A stretch of DNA of 64,000 nt from Verrucomicrobiaceae bacterium (GTDB taxonomy: Bacteria; Verrucomicrobiota; Verrucomicrobiia; Verrucomicrobiales; Verrucomicrobiaceae): assembly GCA_016795485.1 (NCBI GenBank), contig JAEUHM010000040.1, forward strand, positions 186,001 to 250,000, given 5' to 3'. This document shows positions 21,069-28,061 of this stretch, one piece after another (position 1 is the first letter of the stretch; each line of letters opens with the position of its first letter). Under the pieces are notes generated by a model that was given only the letters and a program-made list of their open reading frames with translations, was not told the DNA's origin and made no database searches. The position numbers were made by a program, and so were the translations under genes.

Positions 21069-22391
21069 TCAATACTTCGGGAAGATGGCGGGCGTGGGGA
21101 AGCGTTCGTCCATGTTGGCGCCGTCTTGGAGGTATTCTTCGCGGGGGACTTGGACTTGTGGCCAGGTGCTGGGACGGATGCGGACGACGCGGGCGGGGCG
21201 GATGCCTTCGATGATGAGATCGGTGTCGAACTTGATCTGGATACCACTGCTGCCGAGCGGGGCATTTCCGGGTGCCTTGATGACTTCAAAGAGGGTGCCA
21301 CGCGAGGCCATGTGCGCAGGGCCATAGGCACCGTGCGTGTGCTTGAGCGTGTTTTCGACGGCGTTCATCATGGCGGAGGTGCCTTTGGTGAAGTCGGCGT
21401 AGAGCGATGGGTCCATGCCGCCGAACAAAGTGGCGGTCACGGTGGCACGGCCGAACTTGCCATACTCGACCGCGTCGATCCACGCGGGCATCCATCGGCT
21501 GCGGAGGAAGGCTATGTGTGTCTCGGTCTGGTTTTTGGCTGCGCGTTGCATGGCGGTGTCGTCGAGCCAGATGTCGGAAATGTGAAAGCGGGTGAAGATG
21601 CCATCCGGTGTGGGCCTCCAAGTGATGCCGAGGAGCACCGACTGGCCGTTGAGCGGTTTTTTGCCATCTTTGGGCCAAGCGCCTTCGGTGACGAGGTCTT
21701 CGATGCTGAGGCTTTCGCGGCCACGCCACACGCGGGTGGCGGCATCGAAGGTCAGCTTTTCCTCGGTGGCCTTGGCGTTGCCACCTTGTTTCGGCTCGCA
21801 CGTGGCGAGGATGATGCCCGCGTTGTCTTTGATCTCGATCTCTTTGAGCTTCCAGGTCAAACCCTCACGCTGGCAGTGGCTGGGCTCGTCTTCGAGGAGC
21901 AGGACGTGGTTTTCTGGCGGGAAGATGCCTGCGCCGCGATTGTGGTTCGCGTCCTTTTTACCGCTATCGAGTGCCAGCACCGGCACGGCGGAGGTCTTTG
22001 GGTCTGGCGGGAGAAACGCATGCACATGCAGCACGGTGCCGAGCGGGATGTCACGAAGGTCCGCCGGTGCGCCGTGATACCGCACGATGCCATACGGCAG
22101 CATGGCGAAGGGATGCGGATCATTGCGGAAAAACATGCCCGAGCCCTGCACGCGGATGCTGCCACGGCGGTTTGCATGATCGACAAAGACGAGTTCACCA
22201 CGGTAGGTGTGGGCTTTGTCCAAAGGTGGGAACTTGCCAGCTTCGGGGCGGAAGGGGGTGGTTCCTTGTTCTTGGTTCTTGGTGCTTGGTTCGTTGTTGG
22301 CGGCGTTTGCCTGGATGGCGAACGAACACGAAAGAGCAAGGCATGCTGAAGGAACAAAGAACCAGGAACGAGGAACAAAGAACGGCTTCAT
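21069..22391 (-). CDS. Exported protein of unrecognised family, tandem paralogue A
   Basis: A 440-residue protein of unknown function, closely similar along its length to the next gene (22399-23718). Shared blocks include [60 protein letters not shown] and [19 protein letters not shown]. The His-rich [10 protein letters not shown] block and the many Trp residues suggest a binding or redox role, but I recognise no family. The first 45 residues are unusual: [12 protein letters not shown] and [10 protein letters not shown] are encoded by the two arms of a GTTCTTGG-type repeat, with the hydrophobic signal core between them. The gene starts 7 bases after the upstream stop. Confidence 0.8.
22260..22383 (-). 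repeat. GTTCTTGG-type inverted repeat pair A, inside the 5' end of paralogue A
   Basis: Two arms, 22349-22383 and 22260-22293, flank a 55-base spacer. Read on the coding strand the first arm begins GTTCTTTGTTCCTCG and the second is roughly its reverse complement, ending CCAAGAACAAGGAACC. In the mRNA they could pair into a long stem whose loop codes for the signal-peptide core. Most differences between the arms are C/T, which still pair as G-U. Confidence 0.75.
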
Positions 22392-22398
22392 AAGTGTG

Positions 22399-23718
22399 TC
22401 AGTATTTCGGAAAGATGTCGGATGTTGGGAAGCGCTCTTCGATGCTGCCCTGGTTGATGTATTCCTCGCGTGGCAGGTGGACGTCCGGCCAGCTCGCTGG
22501 GCGCACGCGGACGATGCGCGTGGGGCGCATGCCTTCGGTGATGAGGTCGGTCTCGAAACGAATCTGGATGCCGCTGCTGCCGAGCGGAGCTTTGCCGGAT
22601 GTCTGGATGACCTCGTGAATGGTGCCGCGTGCAGCCATCTGCGTGGGACCGGCACTGCCGCCTTCGATATGCTTCAGCGTGTTTTCGACGCTGTTCATCA
22701 CGGCGGGGACGCCCTTGCGAAACTCCGCGTAGAGCGTGGCATCCATGCCGCCAAAGAGCGTCGCGGTCACGGTGGCGCGGCCGAACTTGCCATACTCGAC
22801 CGCATCGACCCATGCGGGCAACCAGCGGCTGCGCATGAAGGCCTTGTGTGTCTCCGTCTGGCGCAGCGCGGCGTTTTGCACCGCTGCATCGTCCAGCCAG
22901 ATGTCCGAGACATGAAAACGGGTGAATACACCTCCGAGCGTGGGCTTCCAGGTGAGACCGAGCATGACGGCTTGCCCGCCGAGCGCCTTTTTGCCCTCCG
23001 CAGGCCATGCGCCGTCGTCGATCAGATGTTGAACGAGAAGGCATTCGCGACCACGCCACACGCGCGTGGCGGCATCGAAGGCCAGCGTTTCGTCCTCGGT
23101 CTTGCCTTTGGAGCCTGATTTTGCCTCGCACGTCGCGATGAGCATGCCTTCGCGGTTTTTGACCTCCACTTCCTTCAGCTTCCAGCTCAAACCTACGCGC
23201 TGACAGCGGCTGATTTCGTCTTCGAGCAGCAGGACGTGGTTTTCAGCGGGGAAGATGCCCGCGCCGCGATTGTGATTCGCGTCCTTGTCCTTGTTGTTCA
23301 CCGGCAGCACGGGCACCGCAGAGGTCTTCGGGTCCGGCGGGAGAAACGCATGCACATGCAGCACCGTGCCGAGCGGGATGTCGCGTAAATCCGCCGGCGC
23401 TCCGTGATACCTCACGACGCCATACGGCAGCATCGCAAAGGGATGCGGATCATTCTTTCGAAACATGCCCGATCCCGCCACGCGAACGCTGCCACGGCGA
23501 TTCGCATGATCGACGAAGACCAGCTCGCCGCGATACGTGTGCGCTTTTTCGAGAGGCGGGAACTTGCCGGGTTCGGGGCGAAAAACCTCTGTTCCTGGTT
23601 CTTTGTTCTTGGTGCTTGGTTGTTCGGCGGCCGCGTTTGCCAGGATGACAAAGGAGCACGCGAGCACTGCCAATGGAGGCCAAACAAAGAACGACGAACC
23701 AAGAACAAAGAACCTCAT
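22399..23718 (-). CDS. Exported protein of unrecognised family, tandem paralogue B
   Basis: A 439-residue protein, the second copy of the same unknown family. It shares long exact stretches with paralogue A, for example [20 protein letters not shown] and [20 protein letters not shown], and both end in IFPKY. This suggests a fairly recent duplication with both copies under selection. The N-terminus again contains repeat-derived sequence ([15 protein letters not shown] and [11 protein letters not shown]). Its ATG overlaps the TGA of the upstream DUF1552 gene (ATGA), so it is translationally coupled to it. Function unknown; cell-envelope location is inferred from the signal peptide. Confidence 0.8.
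23591..23714 (-). repeat. GTTCTTGG-type inverted repeat pair B, inside the 5' end of paralogue B
   Basis: Arms at 23681-23714 and 23591-23621 flank a 59-base spacer. They have the same order and orientation as pair A: a GTTCTTTGTTC arm just after the start codon, then a CCAAGAACAAAGAACC arm. The arms encode the FVLGSSFFV and STKNKEPG stretches of the protein. Confidence 0.75.
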
Positions 23719-25088
23719 AGCGCGATCACCTTGTTGCTATCGCCGAACTTGTCCGTCTCCACGCCCATGCGCTGGGCCATGAGGAGGAGGAGATTGCTCA
23801 TGTGGGCGTCGGAGTTCACCGGACGGCTGCAGACTTGATAGTGGGCCGTGGTGAGGGCGCCGTCCTGGCCGAGCGAGTAGCCTGCGAAGCCTTTGGCCTG
23901 CTTGTTGAAGTCGAGATGGCTGCCGTGCTTCAAGCCGAGGCCGGAGCCGCCGGCGAGCACGAGCGGGAGGTTCGCATTGCCGTGGCTGTGGCCGTAGCAC
24001 ATGCCGCTGCCGAAAAGCGACATCGTGGTGTCGAGCAGCGGCTTGCCGCCGAGGTCCTTCGTCTCCGAAAGGCGCGTGAGGAAGTAGCTGAACTGCTCGA
24101 TCGCGAAGGCATCGTAGTTCGTGAGCTTTTCCATGTAACCGGCATCGCCGCCGTGATGACTGAGCTGGTGGCGCGATTCGGTGATGCCGATCTCGGGGAT
24201 GGAAAAAGCATCGCCCTCGCCGCCGAGGCTGAAGGTGGCCACGCGGGTCACATCCGTCTGAAACGCGAGCACCATGAGGTCATACACCGTGCGGAAGTAA
24301 TCGCCCGCCATCGTCTGCGCGACATCGCGGTTCGTGCGCTTGCGGTCGGCATCGGAAATGATCGGCAGCGGCGTGTCGAGCCACGCATCCGCACGGCGCG
24401 TGCGGATCTCCGCCTCGCGCACGGAGGTGAGGTATTGCTCCATGCGCCCTTTGTCCTCCGCGCCCATCTTTTTCTCCAAACTGCGCACTTCGGCGAGGTT
24501 CGCATCGAGCACACTGCCCTTGCGACGCAAAGCACGTCGCTGGGCCATTTTGCCGCCTTTCGGTTCTTCAAATAGCGAGGCGAAAATCTCGCTGCAACGA
24601 CGCAGCGCGGGCAATTGCACGCCATCGGCCGTCCAGGCCAGCGAACCCTGCGTGAGCGCGACTTCCATCGACGGATAACGCGTGTGCGGCGCGGTGATCT
24701 CCGCCATTTTTTGGTCCACGGAGATCGTGTTGCGATCCGAAGGCCCCAGCTTCCCACCCGTGAGCCACACGGAGATGCAGTTGTGATGATGTGATAGGCT
24801 GCCCGGGTGATGCAGGCCGCTGATCGGCGTGATCACATCGCGATGCTTCTCCAACGGCTTCAGCGAGCGGGAGAACTCGTAGCCTTTGCCTTCCTTCAAA
24901 ATCTGGTAGTTCAGCGAGTGCACCCCATTCGCGAGGTAGATGAAAGCGCTGCGCTTTGGCGTCACAGTCGCACTCTCAGCCGCGCGGAGTGGAACCATGC
25001 ACTCGAGCATCGGCAGTGAGATGAAGCTGCCGAGGGCTTTGAGCGCATGGCGGCGATTGAGGAGCCAGGATTGAGTTTGGATGTTCAT
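23715..25088 (-). CDS. DUF1552 family exported protein, second copy
   Basis: A 457-residue DUF1552 protein. I chose the ATG at 25088 ([20 protein letters not shown]), which gives a Tat-like RRHALKALG signal of normal length; the frame to 25439 only reads through the repeat and antisense to the four-helix-bundle gene. Family segments: [35 protein letters not shown], a histidine pair in [13 protein letters not shown], and [20 protein letters not shown]. It is more diverged from the first copy than a simple recent duplication would give. It overlaps paralogue B by ATGA. A repeat arm lies 4 bases before its start codon. Confidence 0.88.
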
Positions 25089-25092
25089 GAAA

Positions 25093-25123
25093 GTTCCTTG
25101 TTCTTGGTTCTTTGTTCTTGGTT
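25093..25123 (-). repeat. GTTCTTGG-type repeat, single arm between the four-helix-bundle and DUF1552 genes
   Basis: A 31-base arm reading GTTCCTTGTTCTTGGTTC and onwards on the plus strand. It starts 4 bases before the DUF1552 ATG and ends 8 bases from the stop of the four-helix-bundle gene. On the coding strand it is of the CCAAGAAC type. Confidence 0.75.
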
Positions 25124-25131
25124 GAAGGCGC

Positions 25132-25506
25132 TCAGCGTGGATTTGGGGTGTTGAGGAGGTAACGAATAAATCCGCCGACTTTGGCGTGAGTGAGAGCGGC
25201 TTGATTGTAGATGGCATCAAACTCCTCCGGGCTGATGTAGGACTGATCCAAAGCGATGTAGAGCTGGCTCTGAACCTCTGAACATGAACGCTGGGAGTAG
25301 CGCAGAAACTTGACGAACTCCGCATTGCTTCCGCCATCGAAGCCTTCCGCGATGTTGTGCATGGCAGAGCCTGATGCGCGTGTGATCTGGTCCCGCAGTC
25401 CGAAGTCCTTCGCAAACATTCCGCGCATGGCCACGGCATAGACCTGCCGCGTCAGCTCTCTCGCTAACTGCCAGCCTTCAATGTCTTCGAAGCGGGTTAT
25501 TTTCAT
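25132..25506 (-). CDS. Four helix bundle protein (23S rRNA intervening-sequence protein / S23 family)
   Basis: A 124-residue protein with the signature of the TIGR02436/S23 family: [48 protein letters not shown] and [11 protein letters not shown]. Family members form pentameric four-helix bundles, occur in intervening sequences of 23S rRNA genes in spirochaetes, and are related to Avd proteins of diversity-generating retroelements. No 23S gene or reverse transcriptase is present here. The gene is bracketed by repeat arms: the 5' repeat touches its ATG and the 3' repeat lies 8 bases after its stop. It sits between a cytochrome gene and a DUF1552 gene that would otherwise be neighbours, so it looks like an insertion into an operon. 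Confidence 0.9.
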
Positions 25507-25612
25507 GTTCTTTGTTCTTGGTGCTTAGTTCTTTGTTCCTGGTTTAGGCGCTTGGTTCGGGGTTTTGGCTTCTTGCTGGGCAACAAAGAACCAAGAACAA
25601 GGAACCAAGAAC
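25507..25612 (-). repeat. GTTCTTGG-type inverted repeat pair D, upstream of the four-helix-bundle gene
   Basis: Arms at 25581-25612 and 25507-25560 are separated by 20 bases. On the coding strand the first arm starts one base after the cytochrome stop codon (GTTCTTGGTTCCTTG) and the second, longer arm ends directly at the ATG (ACCAAGAACAAAGAAC then ATG). The whole gap between the two genes is therefore repeat. Confidence 0.78.
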
Positions 25613-25613
25613 T

Positions 25614-28061
25614 TCACCGCTTCCTCATCAGCTCCGACGCCGCCACCGCACGCACGATGTCCTTGATGCGGTAACCGCTCTTCTTCGCCTCGTTCGCGAT
25701 GGCCTGGAGATCATCTTGATCATCAAAGGCGACGGGGCGGCGGAGGGCGTAGGTGCAGAGGTGGTCGATGAAGGCGCGGGCGAGTTTGTCGCGGTCTTCG
25801 AGGAGGCGTTGTTTGAACTCGTTGACGTCTTTGAAGGCGCGGCCGTCGGGCATCGCGCCGCTGGAGTTGATCACGGGGTCCTCGCCGACACCTGCGGCGA
25901 CTTTTTCGCGGGTGCGCCACTGGCCGATGGCGTCGTAGTTGTCCCAGGCGAGGCCGAGCGGGTCGATCTTGGCATGGCAGGCGGCACAGTTCGGGTCTTC
26001 GCGGTGGGCTTCGATCTTCTGGCGCAGCGTGGCTTTGGGGCTTTGGGGCGTCGGTGGCTCGATGGCGGGCACGTTCGCAGGCGGTGGAGGTGGCGGCTTG
26101 CCGAGCACGACCTCGCTCAGCCACACACCGCGATGCACGGGACGATGCCGCGTGCCATCGGAGGTAAGGCCGAGCACGGCGCCCATCGTGAGCAGGCCGC
26201 CGCGATGATGGTCGGGCTTCAAGGACACACGCTGGAAGCCGCCCTTCTGCGGCTCTGGCAGGCCGTAAAAGTCGCACAGGCGAGCATTCGCGATGGTCCA
26301 GTCGGATTCGATGAAGCCGTCGATGGGGGCGTTCTTGGCAAACATCTCGCGGAAGAACTCCACCGGTTCGTTGCGCATGCTTTCCTCAAGCCACGCGTCG
26401 TAGGTCGGATAGAGCTTCTTGTCCGGTGGGAACATGCCCACGCGGTTCAGTTGCAGCCACTGACGCGCGAAATCGTCGATGAAGCGGCTGGCTTTGCCAT
26501 CGGCGAGCATGCGGTCGATCTCCTTCTTCAAAGCATCGCCGTTCAGCGTGCCGGATTTCGCGGCGGTGAAGAGCGCCTCATCCGGCATCGAGCTCCACAG
26601 GAAATACGACAGCCGCGTGGCGAGCTCGGAGTCCGTGAGTTCCTCCCGAGCCACCGGATCGCCCTCGACGATGTAGATGAAGTGGCGCGAGGTCAGCACG
26701 CCCTGCAAGGCCACGCGATAGGCATCGACGAGCTTTTCGCCCGCGTCGCGCTCCTCGCGATACGACTTCAAATACTGCTCCAGCTCCTCCAGCTTCACCG
26801 GGCGACGCCACGCCCGCTCCGAGAACCTTTGCAAATGCGCCGCCACCACCTCCGGCGTGGCATCATCGGGCGGCACCACGTCCTTGCGCTGTGCTTTCTC
26901 CGCGTCGGAGACCAGCGGGCCTTCCCACTCGATCCAGTCCAGTAGCACGGTGGAGAAGATGCCATTGCCCTTCTCGTCGAACATCTGCGGCGCGTTCGGA
27001 TTGAGCAGCATCGTCTCGCTGCTGTGCGTGAAAATGTAGCCACCGCGGCTGCCGAGCGCATTGCGAAAGGCCGCGCCCTGCCGGCGATCCACCACATCCG
27101 TGGCCACCACGCAAAAGTGCAGTGTCGCGGGCATTTCGAGGAAGACCTCAAACTCATACACCTGCGGCTTGTCCTCCGGCGCGGTGATGTCGAACTCGAT
27201 CATGCCGTCCACCGTCTCCTCGCCGGTCTTCGTGCCGATGCTCAAATGAGCCGTCTGGCCGCCGGGTGGACGCGTGCCACTGGCCTGGATGCGCAGTTTG
27301 TAGAGGCCGCTGTGCTCCGGCCCCGTCTTGCCAAACCAATTCGGCGCGAGAGCATTCTGCACCGTGCCGGGGAACATCAGGTAACGCAGCGGCCGCTTGA
27401 TGCCAAAGCGGTCCAGCGCCGCCTGCTGCTCCTTGCCTCCGCCGTAGCGCAGGTCCGCCGCGCTCATGCGCACTTTACGTGCCTCGCTCGTCGCCGTCGG
27501 AAACGCACGATCCAGCACCAGTTCCGCCGCGCGGTAGTAGCGGTCCACATGCGAGGGCGAGAGCGACAGCTCGGAGCCGATGCGCTCAAAGCCATGCCAC
27601 AGGTTGTCCTCGTTTAACTCGCCCGGCTTCGCGGGATCGTAGCGCACGCCGAGCAGGTCATAGACCGTGTTTTGATACTCCTTCCGGCTCAGCCGGTAAT
27701 GCGCCACCGCCGGCCGCTGCGCCATGCGTGCCGCGCGGCCCTGCTTCATCAGCCCGTCCAGATTCGTCACAAAGGCCGCGATCTCCGCCTGCGTCGGTTT
27801 CGTCTCCTTGTCCTTCTTCGGCGGCATCTCGCCCGAGTTCACGTTTTCGATCACCTCCGCCCAATGATGCGTGTCAGCGCCGAGCTGGAAATCGCGCGAG
27901 AGCTCATCAATGCGCAGATCCCCCTTCTCCTTCTCCGGCCCATGGCAGCGGAGGCAGTGGGTTTTCAAAAACGCCTCAAAAGGCTCCTTCGCCGCAGCGG
28001 AAGCGGCAGTGAGCAGGCTGGCAAAGGCAAACAAAGTCCGGGAGCGAAAACAGGAAAGCAT
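25614..28061 (-). CDS. DUF1592-type planctomycete cytochrome c protein, second copy
   Basis: An 815-residue exported protein with signal peptide ending TAASAAAK. Heme sites are [15 protein letters not shown] near residue 35 and [17 protein letters not shown] near residue 697. Between them are the [18 protein letters not shown] segment (DUF1587), a beta-sandwich middle region, [18 protein letters not shown] (DUF1592) and [16 protein letters not shown] (DUF1588). The C-terminus ([15 protein letters not shown]) fits DUF1585. It is the first gene of the minus-strand cluster and is followed by the repeat-flanked four-helix-bundle gene and the second DUF1552 gene. It probably works as a periplasmic redox partner or enzyme; the reaction is unknown. 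Confidence 0.9.

Follow-up and report, generated by a model that had tools for sequence, protein, structure and literature searches.

An S23/IVP gene enclosed by inverted heptamer arrays in Verrucomicrobiaceae: a probable transposase-less mobile element related to 23S rRNA intervening sequences

The S23/IVP gene located between two operon genes in a 64,000-nucleotide stretch of a Verrucomicrobiaceae genome (contig JAEUHM010000040.1; the whole stretch is called here the window) is, together with the repeat arrays that enclose it, probably one copy of a mobile element of ~0.42–0.7 kb, which is similar to intervening sequences (IVS), lacks a transposase, and encodes a four-helix-bundle protein recognizing its own array. 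As judged from genome comparisons, the gene is inserted, lost, and decays at fixed junctions, and the arrays travel with it. The repeat unit is specific for each protein subfamily, the arrays have a fixed polarity, and gene-less arrays are dispersed. We infer both the recognition of the array by the protein and the route of movement.

Proteins of the S23/IVP family, for which no function has been established, are very common and occur in 57 of 59 genomes of the Verrucomicrobiaceae. The 124-aa protein of the window belongs to this family, since it passes the curated cut-offs of the PF05635 profile (23S_rRNA_IVP; E 5.7e-29; 100.9 bits, cut-off 33.8) and the TIGR02436 profile (E 4e-27; 94.6 bits, cut-off 24). 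Its AF2 model (pLDDT 95.7) is a four-helix bundle like that of Xanthomonas campestris XCC0516 (PDB 2gsc), the nearest solved structure to the S23 family (TM 0.86/0.91; Z 19.4; rmsd 1.2 over 114 residues), which is a homopentameric ring of five chains (PMC4990558). The match of the model to Avd of diversity-generating retroelements (DGRs) gave Z 14.4 and exceeds only slightly that of unrelated helical bundles, a pectin methylesterase inhibitor giving Z 13.1. An insertion sequence encodes a transposase; the sole ORF of the element described here is the S23 gene, which matched no transposase among Pfam and TIGR02436 profiles and matched PF05635 alone in Pfam, with no match to a Y1 HUH transposase. 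The genome of the window contains nine TIGR02436 genes, located apart from one another. Two divergent S23-like genes of the same genome (L008 and L009; C7 and C28; longer frames of 221–285 aa) have no clear edge arrays and possibly a different function.

The repeats consist of tandem arrays of the 7-nt unit GTTCYTK and its inverted form (Table 1). Read along the sense strand of the gene, a G-type array comes first, followed by the spacer, a C-type array, the ORF from its ATG to its stop codon, 8 nt, and a second C-type array. The preliminary description of this DNA had reported repeats touching the ATG, a further arm 8 nt past the stop codon, a gap to the previous gene made up entirely of repeat, and a cytochrome and a DUF1552 gene as neighbors. 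All of these observations hold: the two arrays of the same orientation occupy exactly these places, the gap to the cytochrome gene is filled by an array, a degenerate ~37-nt spacer, and an inverted array, and the neighbors matched a PSD/cytochrome-c protein and DUF1552/PF07586. The repeats themselves are real and enclose the gene, but their unit is a 7-mer in tandem and not, as had been described, copies of an 8-mer. The array past the stop codon has an exact inverted match of 24 nt at 25582–25605, compared to a maximum of 18 for a local exact inverted repeat in 300 shuffles. When basic periods of 4–13 were scanned at the first threshold, arrays were found in the window only at period 7; at the lower threshold, four lag-7 arrays were found in 64 kb (mean of shuffled sequences, 0.067), all of them inside 3.3 kb of each other. 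In the predicted fold of the element transcript, a stem of ~25 bp joins the outermost arrays around the ORF (z -2.88).

Table 1. Location of the S23 element, its arrays, neighboring genes, and gene-less mini-elements in the window
Feature	Position	Strand	Remarks
Whole element, between cytochrome stop and DUF1552 start	25090–25612	-	missing as a block in ~16 relatives; identity to G042 jumps at the edges
S23/23S_rRNA_IVP four-helix-bundle gene (ORF, 124 aa)	25132–25506	-	PF05635, TIGR02436, AF2, PDB 2gsc
Heptamer array past the stop codon	25093–25123	+	lag-7 score 12; plus strand GTTCYTK; in the sense of the gene, CAAGAAC type
Heptamer array abutting the ATG, oriented as 25093–25123	25507–25544	+	clear to 25538, degenerate at the far end
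Spacer/hairpin loop, degenerate repeat, ~37 nt	25545–25581		well conserved in G042
Inverted heptamer array, outer upstream end of the element	25582–25612	-	pairs with 25093–25123 in the RNA fold
Upstream ("left") neighbor, PSD/planctomycete-type cytochrome c protein gene	25614–28061	-	used for the empty-site comparison
Right neighbor, DUF1552 (PF07586) gene	23715–25088	-	profile match
Gene-less mini-element: array 22261–22295 and inverted array 22349–22383	22261–22383		paired inverted arrays
Gene-less mini-element: array 23591–23618 and inverted array 23686–23713	23591–23713		in the 5' end of gene 22399–23718

The association of arrays with S23 genes extends far beyond the window. It was followed in 186 distinct S23 ORFs from Verrucomicrobiaceae, its phylum, and 80 named genomes, in samples chosen by similarity, with threshold-based array calls and with related genomes counted separately. 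Lag-7 arrays occur at 1.96 per kb within 100 bp of these ORFs and at 0.05 per kb at a distance of 3.2–8 kb, a 38-fold difference; for lag-8 arrays, the densities are 0.60 per kb near and 0.006 far (~100-fold), and no period other than multiples of 7 and 8 reaches 0.14 per kb. This distance profile, together with the shuffles, rules out a chance origin of the arrays. At least one array was called at the lower threshold for 113 of the 186 ORFs; the remaining 73, including four of the nine in the genome of the window, had none at the threshold used, which weighs against the mobile element. The named loci span Bacteroidota, Planctomycetota, Acidobacteriota, Clostridia, Lentisphaerota, Fibrobacter, and candidate phyla, and in Gammaproteobacteria arrays accompany 29 of 35 S23 genes. 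Arrays flank the gene on both sides in 52 cases, and there the downstream array is built of the same unit as the upstream one, inverted: the inverted comparison was better in 49 (scores: inverted 17.7, direct 4.3, shuffled partners 4.3). Read on the sense strand, upstream arrays are mostly G-rich (64:20) and downstream arrays mostly C-rich (13:77). The median length of the 7-mer arrays is 4.4 units, and in minimum-free-energy folds the outer arrays are joined by at least 10 bp in 45 of the 52 elements.

The unit changes with the protein. Several S23 genes of the genome of the window have edge arrays of other units, namely the 8-mer TGTCTGAT, GATTTTG, and GATGCGT. At non-orthologous sites, a common unit was found for 29% of S23 pairs at least 60% identical and for 0.2–1.1% of pairs below 40% identity, and matches in the wrong orientation were almost absent. 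The preliminary description expected one repeat consensus beside family members; arrays do lie at the edges of many of them, but the unit follows the protein subfamily and not the family as a whole. Array flanks are also not a general trait of small insert genes: in the same genomes, lag-7 arrays were present at one of 30 GxxExxY genes, compared to 26 of 74 S23 genes (p 0.0004). Three GxxExxY (TIGR04256) genes (L310, L314, and L317) have the same 9-mer array, TTCCGYGTG, at ~115 bp, and this family may have a repeat of its own.

The junction between the cytochrome and DUF1552 genes was compared in 30 relatives. It is empty in ~16 of them, with gaps of 20–60 bp, including the closest relative, G055 (cytochrome 93% identical), in which the gap is 20 nt. 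An S23 gene with heptamers occupies it in G000, G028, G042 (where it is frameshifted), and G006; a decayed S23 remnant is left in G041; another S23, with the 8-mer unit TGGAGTAG, is found in G030, G056, and G011; and G049, G016, and G039 contain other small inserts. These states are distributed patchily on the cytochrome tree. With no transposase in the element, and with a junction that is empty, occupied, decayed, or taken by another S23, the earlier suggestion of a small insertion element without a known transposase is supported, and the empty sites it called for exist, both here and as 3-nt junctions in Nostoc plasmids. Between G000 and G042, the dS of S23 is 0.29 compared to 1.09 for the flanking cytochrome gene, and nucleotide identity rises exactly at the element edges, which indicates that the element was exchanged between lineages; alternatively, conversion limited to the element may account for this. 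In most other occupied pairs, the dS of S23 is close to that of the cytochrome, and thus many copies are old and movement at this junction is rare or old. From the variety of its contents, the junction looks like an insertion hotspot. One of the other inserts, in G039 (L252), is a GxxExxY-like gene with the inverted repeat CCCACAGATTCAGGGAGGCCCACAGATT ahead of it, and another, of ~650 bp, is found in G049 (L251) and G016 (L262).

The heptamer pattern also recurs through the genome of the window, with 44 hits against six of the reversed pattern, a weak control. The two mini-elements in Table 1, which the preliminary description did not include, repeat the arrays of the S23 element as inverted pairs. 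In gene 22399–23718 and its tandem paralogue (L328–L347), the signal-peptide/N-terminal region is encoded by repeat arrays, of the GTTCTTG type in some relatives and of the 8-mer ACTCCACC type in others at the equivalent place; solo arrays have thus apparently been built into the coding sequence. Across family f1, GTTCYTK counts were set against the presence of the cognate S23, and several genomes without it have many hits; because of these genomes, and because the reversed pattern used as a control is almost identical to the pattern itself (GTTCTTG is unchanged on reversal), this comparison is not decisive.

The control is clean for GGGAWT, the pattern relevant to Xanthomonas. In X. campestris, 186 GGGAATC arrays were described, in 70 cases in convergent pairs, and left unexplained (Rehm et al., PMC4692102); the same organism carries the S23 protein XCC0516. 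The occurrence of GGGAATC beside XCC0516-type genes was predicted in writing before the test. GGGAATC-type (GGGANTN) arrays were found at all 24 XCC0516-like genes, 23 of them by the strict pair pattern, in a sample of genes 62–70% identical to XCC0516 (68–70% in the nearest genomes) that does not contain XCC0516 itself. They were found at none of six S23 genes less than 60% identical to it. Genomes with an XCC0516-like gene have a median of 147.5 GGGAWT tandem hits, and at least 17 hits are present in 24 of 24 such genomes, compared to 37 of 170 genomes without the gene (p 2e-14, uncorrected for kinship). The XCC0516 query had no match in phage records. The 37 genomes without the gene, together with the several of family f1, constitute a point against the mobile element, as arrays are dispersed there without a matching S23.

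The abundance of dispersed arrays could also be explained by a domesticated regulator. It would be assumed that S23 binds heptamer arrays in mRNA, the arrays of its own gene serve autoregulation, the dispersed arrays are regulatory, and movement is incidental. The position of arrays at start codons and intercistronic junctions, the strong stems, and the ratio of one XCC0516-like gene to tens or hundreds of array hits in a genome fit this explanation. However, a conserved regulator would not be expected to show patchy occupancy, different S23 elements at a single junction, transfer limited to the element, or decayed copies, and we regard this explanation as unlikely.

Cleaner evidence of insertion comes from plasmids of Nostoc; in cyanobacterial plasmids, a lag-7 array was found near the S23 gene at 10 of 10 loci and is weak at one. 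At the first Nostoc junction, three plasmids have a gap of 3 nt, two others contain the S23 element, and a sixth contains a broken element. At the second, next in this row of genes, the gap is 3, 2, or -1 nt in four plasmids, and pNsp_c has a different S23 with a different unit. No array is present at the empty Nostoc junctions; the arrays therefore arrived with the gene, and their role as pre-existing landing sites is excluded. A Nostoc and an Aulosira copy at unrelated sites share 81% identity over the stretch bounded by their outer array edges, where the similarity ends, and one copy (L426) has lost the middle of the S23 gene. A 6-bp duplication at a Nostoc junction (TTCTAA/TTCTAG) is a candidate target-site duplication of the kind known from insertion sequences, but it resembles the array unit and could be array sequence. 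Two plasmids of Calothrix brevissima NIES-22 (L348 and L349) have in common a near-identical ~3.5-kb block that carries S23 and an integrase-family gene, in otherwise unlike surroundings; because the common block is that long, this pair was dropped as a case of movement of the element alone. In Nostoc edaphicum (L350), an S23 gene with (AGTAGGG)n arrays lies between nrdB and nrdA, where a Calothrix plasmid (L431) has a gap of 40 nt. In type I-D CRISPR loci of cyanobacterial plasmids (L354 and L357), S23 elements are also found between cas6 and cas4, a placement that may explain the listing of 23S rRNA IVP among CRISPR-linked domains (PMC10910872).

These plasmids also bear on the possibility that S23 is a passenger of slippage-born arrays, moved when these recombine with each other through homologous recombination or single-strand annealing. 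Arrays differ in length, one array type replaces another at the starts of gene B, and one Nostoc junction has a candidate microhomology. Nevertheless, the array-free empty sites show that arrays came with the gene, the covariation of unit and protein and the fixed inverted polarity require a link to the protein, and the GxxExxY control family lacks this association. Such a passive cassette is quite improbable.

The closest known system is the IVS of 23S rRNA. In Coxiella burnetii, the IVS of ~430 nt contains an S23 ORF, a 28-bp terminal stem, and tandem GACAGAT heptamers ahead of the ORF; RNase III excises it, and earlier authors suspected that it is mobile (PMC4990558). The element in the window shares with the IVS an S23/IVP ORF enclosed by terminal inverted repeats that fold into a stem (as do the 45 folded elements of the survey), tandem heptamers before the ORF as reported for Coxiella, patchy presence, and a decaying ORF. 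However, an IVS is defined by insertion into 23S rRNA, whereas the window copy lies between two protein genes and its unit-specific arrays occur genome-wide; none of 40 other S23 loci checked overlapped rRNA. Being outside rRNA, the element is therefore classified as a variant of the IVS kind and not as an IVS.

The second system to consider is RAYT (TnpA_REP), whose gene is flanked by its own repeat type and accompanied by dispersed gene-less copies, often inverted pairs (PMC3116915; PMC8266576). The likeness to RAYT/REPIN lies in the repeat type being found both beside the gene and in many gene-less copies through the genome, and in the covariation of repeat and protein, and concerns the way of working, not membership. 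RAYT is a Y1 HUH nuclease and REP a palindrome, whereas S23 is a four-helix bundle with 7/8-nt tandem arrays. By analogy, the element resembles RAYT/REPIN in function, with an unrelated and apparently non-catalytic protein.

Heptamer repeats of Nostoc, GGGGA(C/T)T, and of Xanthomonas, GGGAATC, were published with an unexplained origin and no partner gene (PMC4692102), and none was published for the short TAACTGA heptamer arrays of Beggiatoaceae (PMC4679880). Like the arrays described here, these repeats and the cyanobacterial STRRs are short and mostly intergenic, and in Xanthomonas often form convergent pairs; in contrast to the published accounts, GGGAATC is now found as the unit beside XCC0516-like S23 genes. 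Among the full texts searched, with most subscription journals outside the search, there was no link between S23/IVP genes and dispersed heptamers, with the exception of the Coxiella IVS heptamers.

Avd (PDB 4dwl, 8ube) is required for retrohoming together with the reverse transcriptase (RT). The modeled fold of the window protein is that of Avd, Avd and PF05635 have been treated as homologous, and PF05635 is common near DGRs (PMC10053308). Nevertheless, it is scarcely credible that the gene is an orphan accessory gene of Avd type, as Avd sits in RT/TR/VR loci and no RT was found among the six neighboring proteins profiled, DGRs are not built on 7-mer arrays, and the nine S23 genes of this genome stand apart.

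For the mobile element, the following mechanism can be proposed. An S23 gene within inverted tandem arrays of the 7/8-nt unit specific to its subfamily would insert as a whole and without encoding a transposase, in many cases into the few nucleotides that separate two operon genes. By analogy with solved relatives, the homopentameric S23 ring may bind one array with approximately one 7-nt register per subunit; arrays mostly of 4–5 units are offered as a fit to about five registers per pentamer. The transcript would fold into a long stem around the ORF, as in 23S rRNA IVS, and this stem may be the form that is handled. Action of the protein on repeat hairpins, the second suggestion of the preliminary description, would fit both the enclosing stem and the covariation of unit and protein. 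To our knowledge, the S23 family has no catalytic residues, and other enzymes would therefore have to do the chemistry: S23 may pass this RNA, or single-stranded DNA, on to host enzymes that carry out the insertion. More speculatively, the RNA might be copied by an RT supplied in trans, by analogy with Avd in DGRs.

A more general form of this proposal, to which we give even chances, makes S23/IVP proteins the mobilizing partners of a large transposase-free class, in which each subfamily would recognize its own 7–8 nt unit, move itself, and spread solo arrays, having produced Xanthomonas GGGAATC, the cyanobacterial heptamers, and the 23S rRNA IVS. The link between subfamily and repeat gives S23/IVP a function that can be tested. 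Three separate puzzles could share a single origin, namely the intervening sequences of 23S rRNA, the dispersed heptamer repeats, and the small orphan genes found interrupting operons, and several bacterial short-repeat families of unexplained origin could stem from such gene-plus-repeat elements. If this is true, a nuclease-free element with a small ring-forming protein matched, subfamily by subfamily, to a 7-nt repeat would represent a new way of DNA movement.
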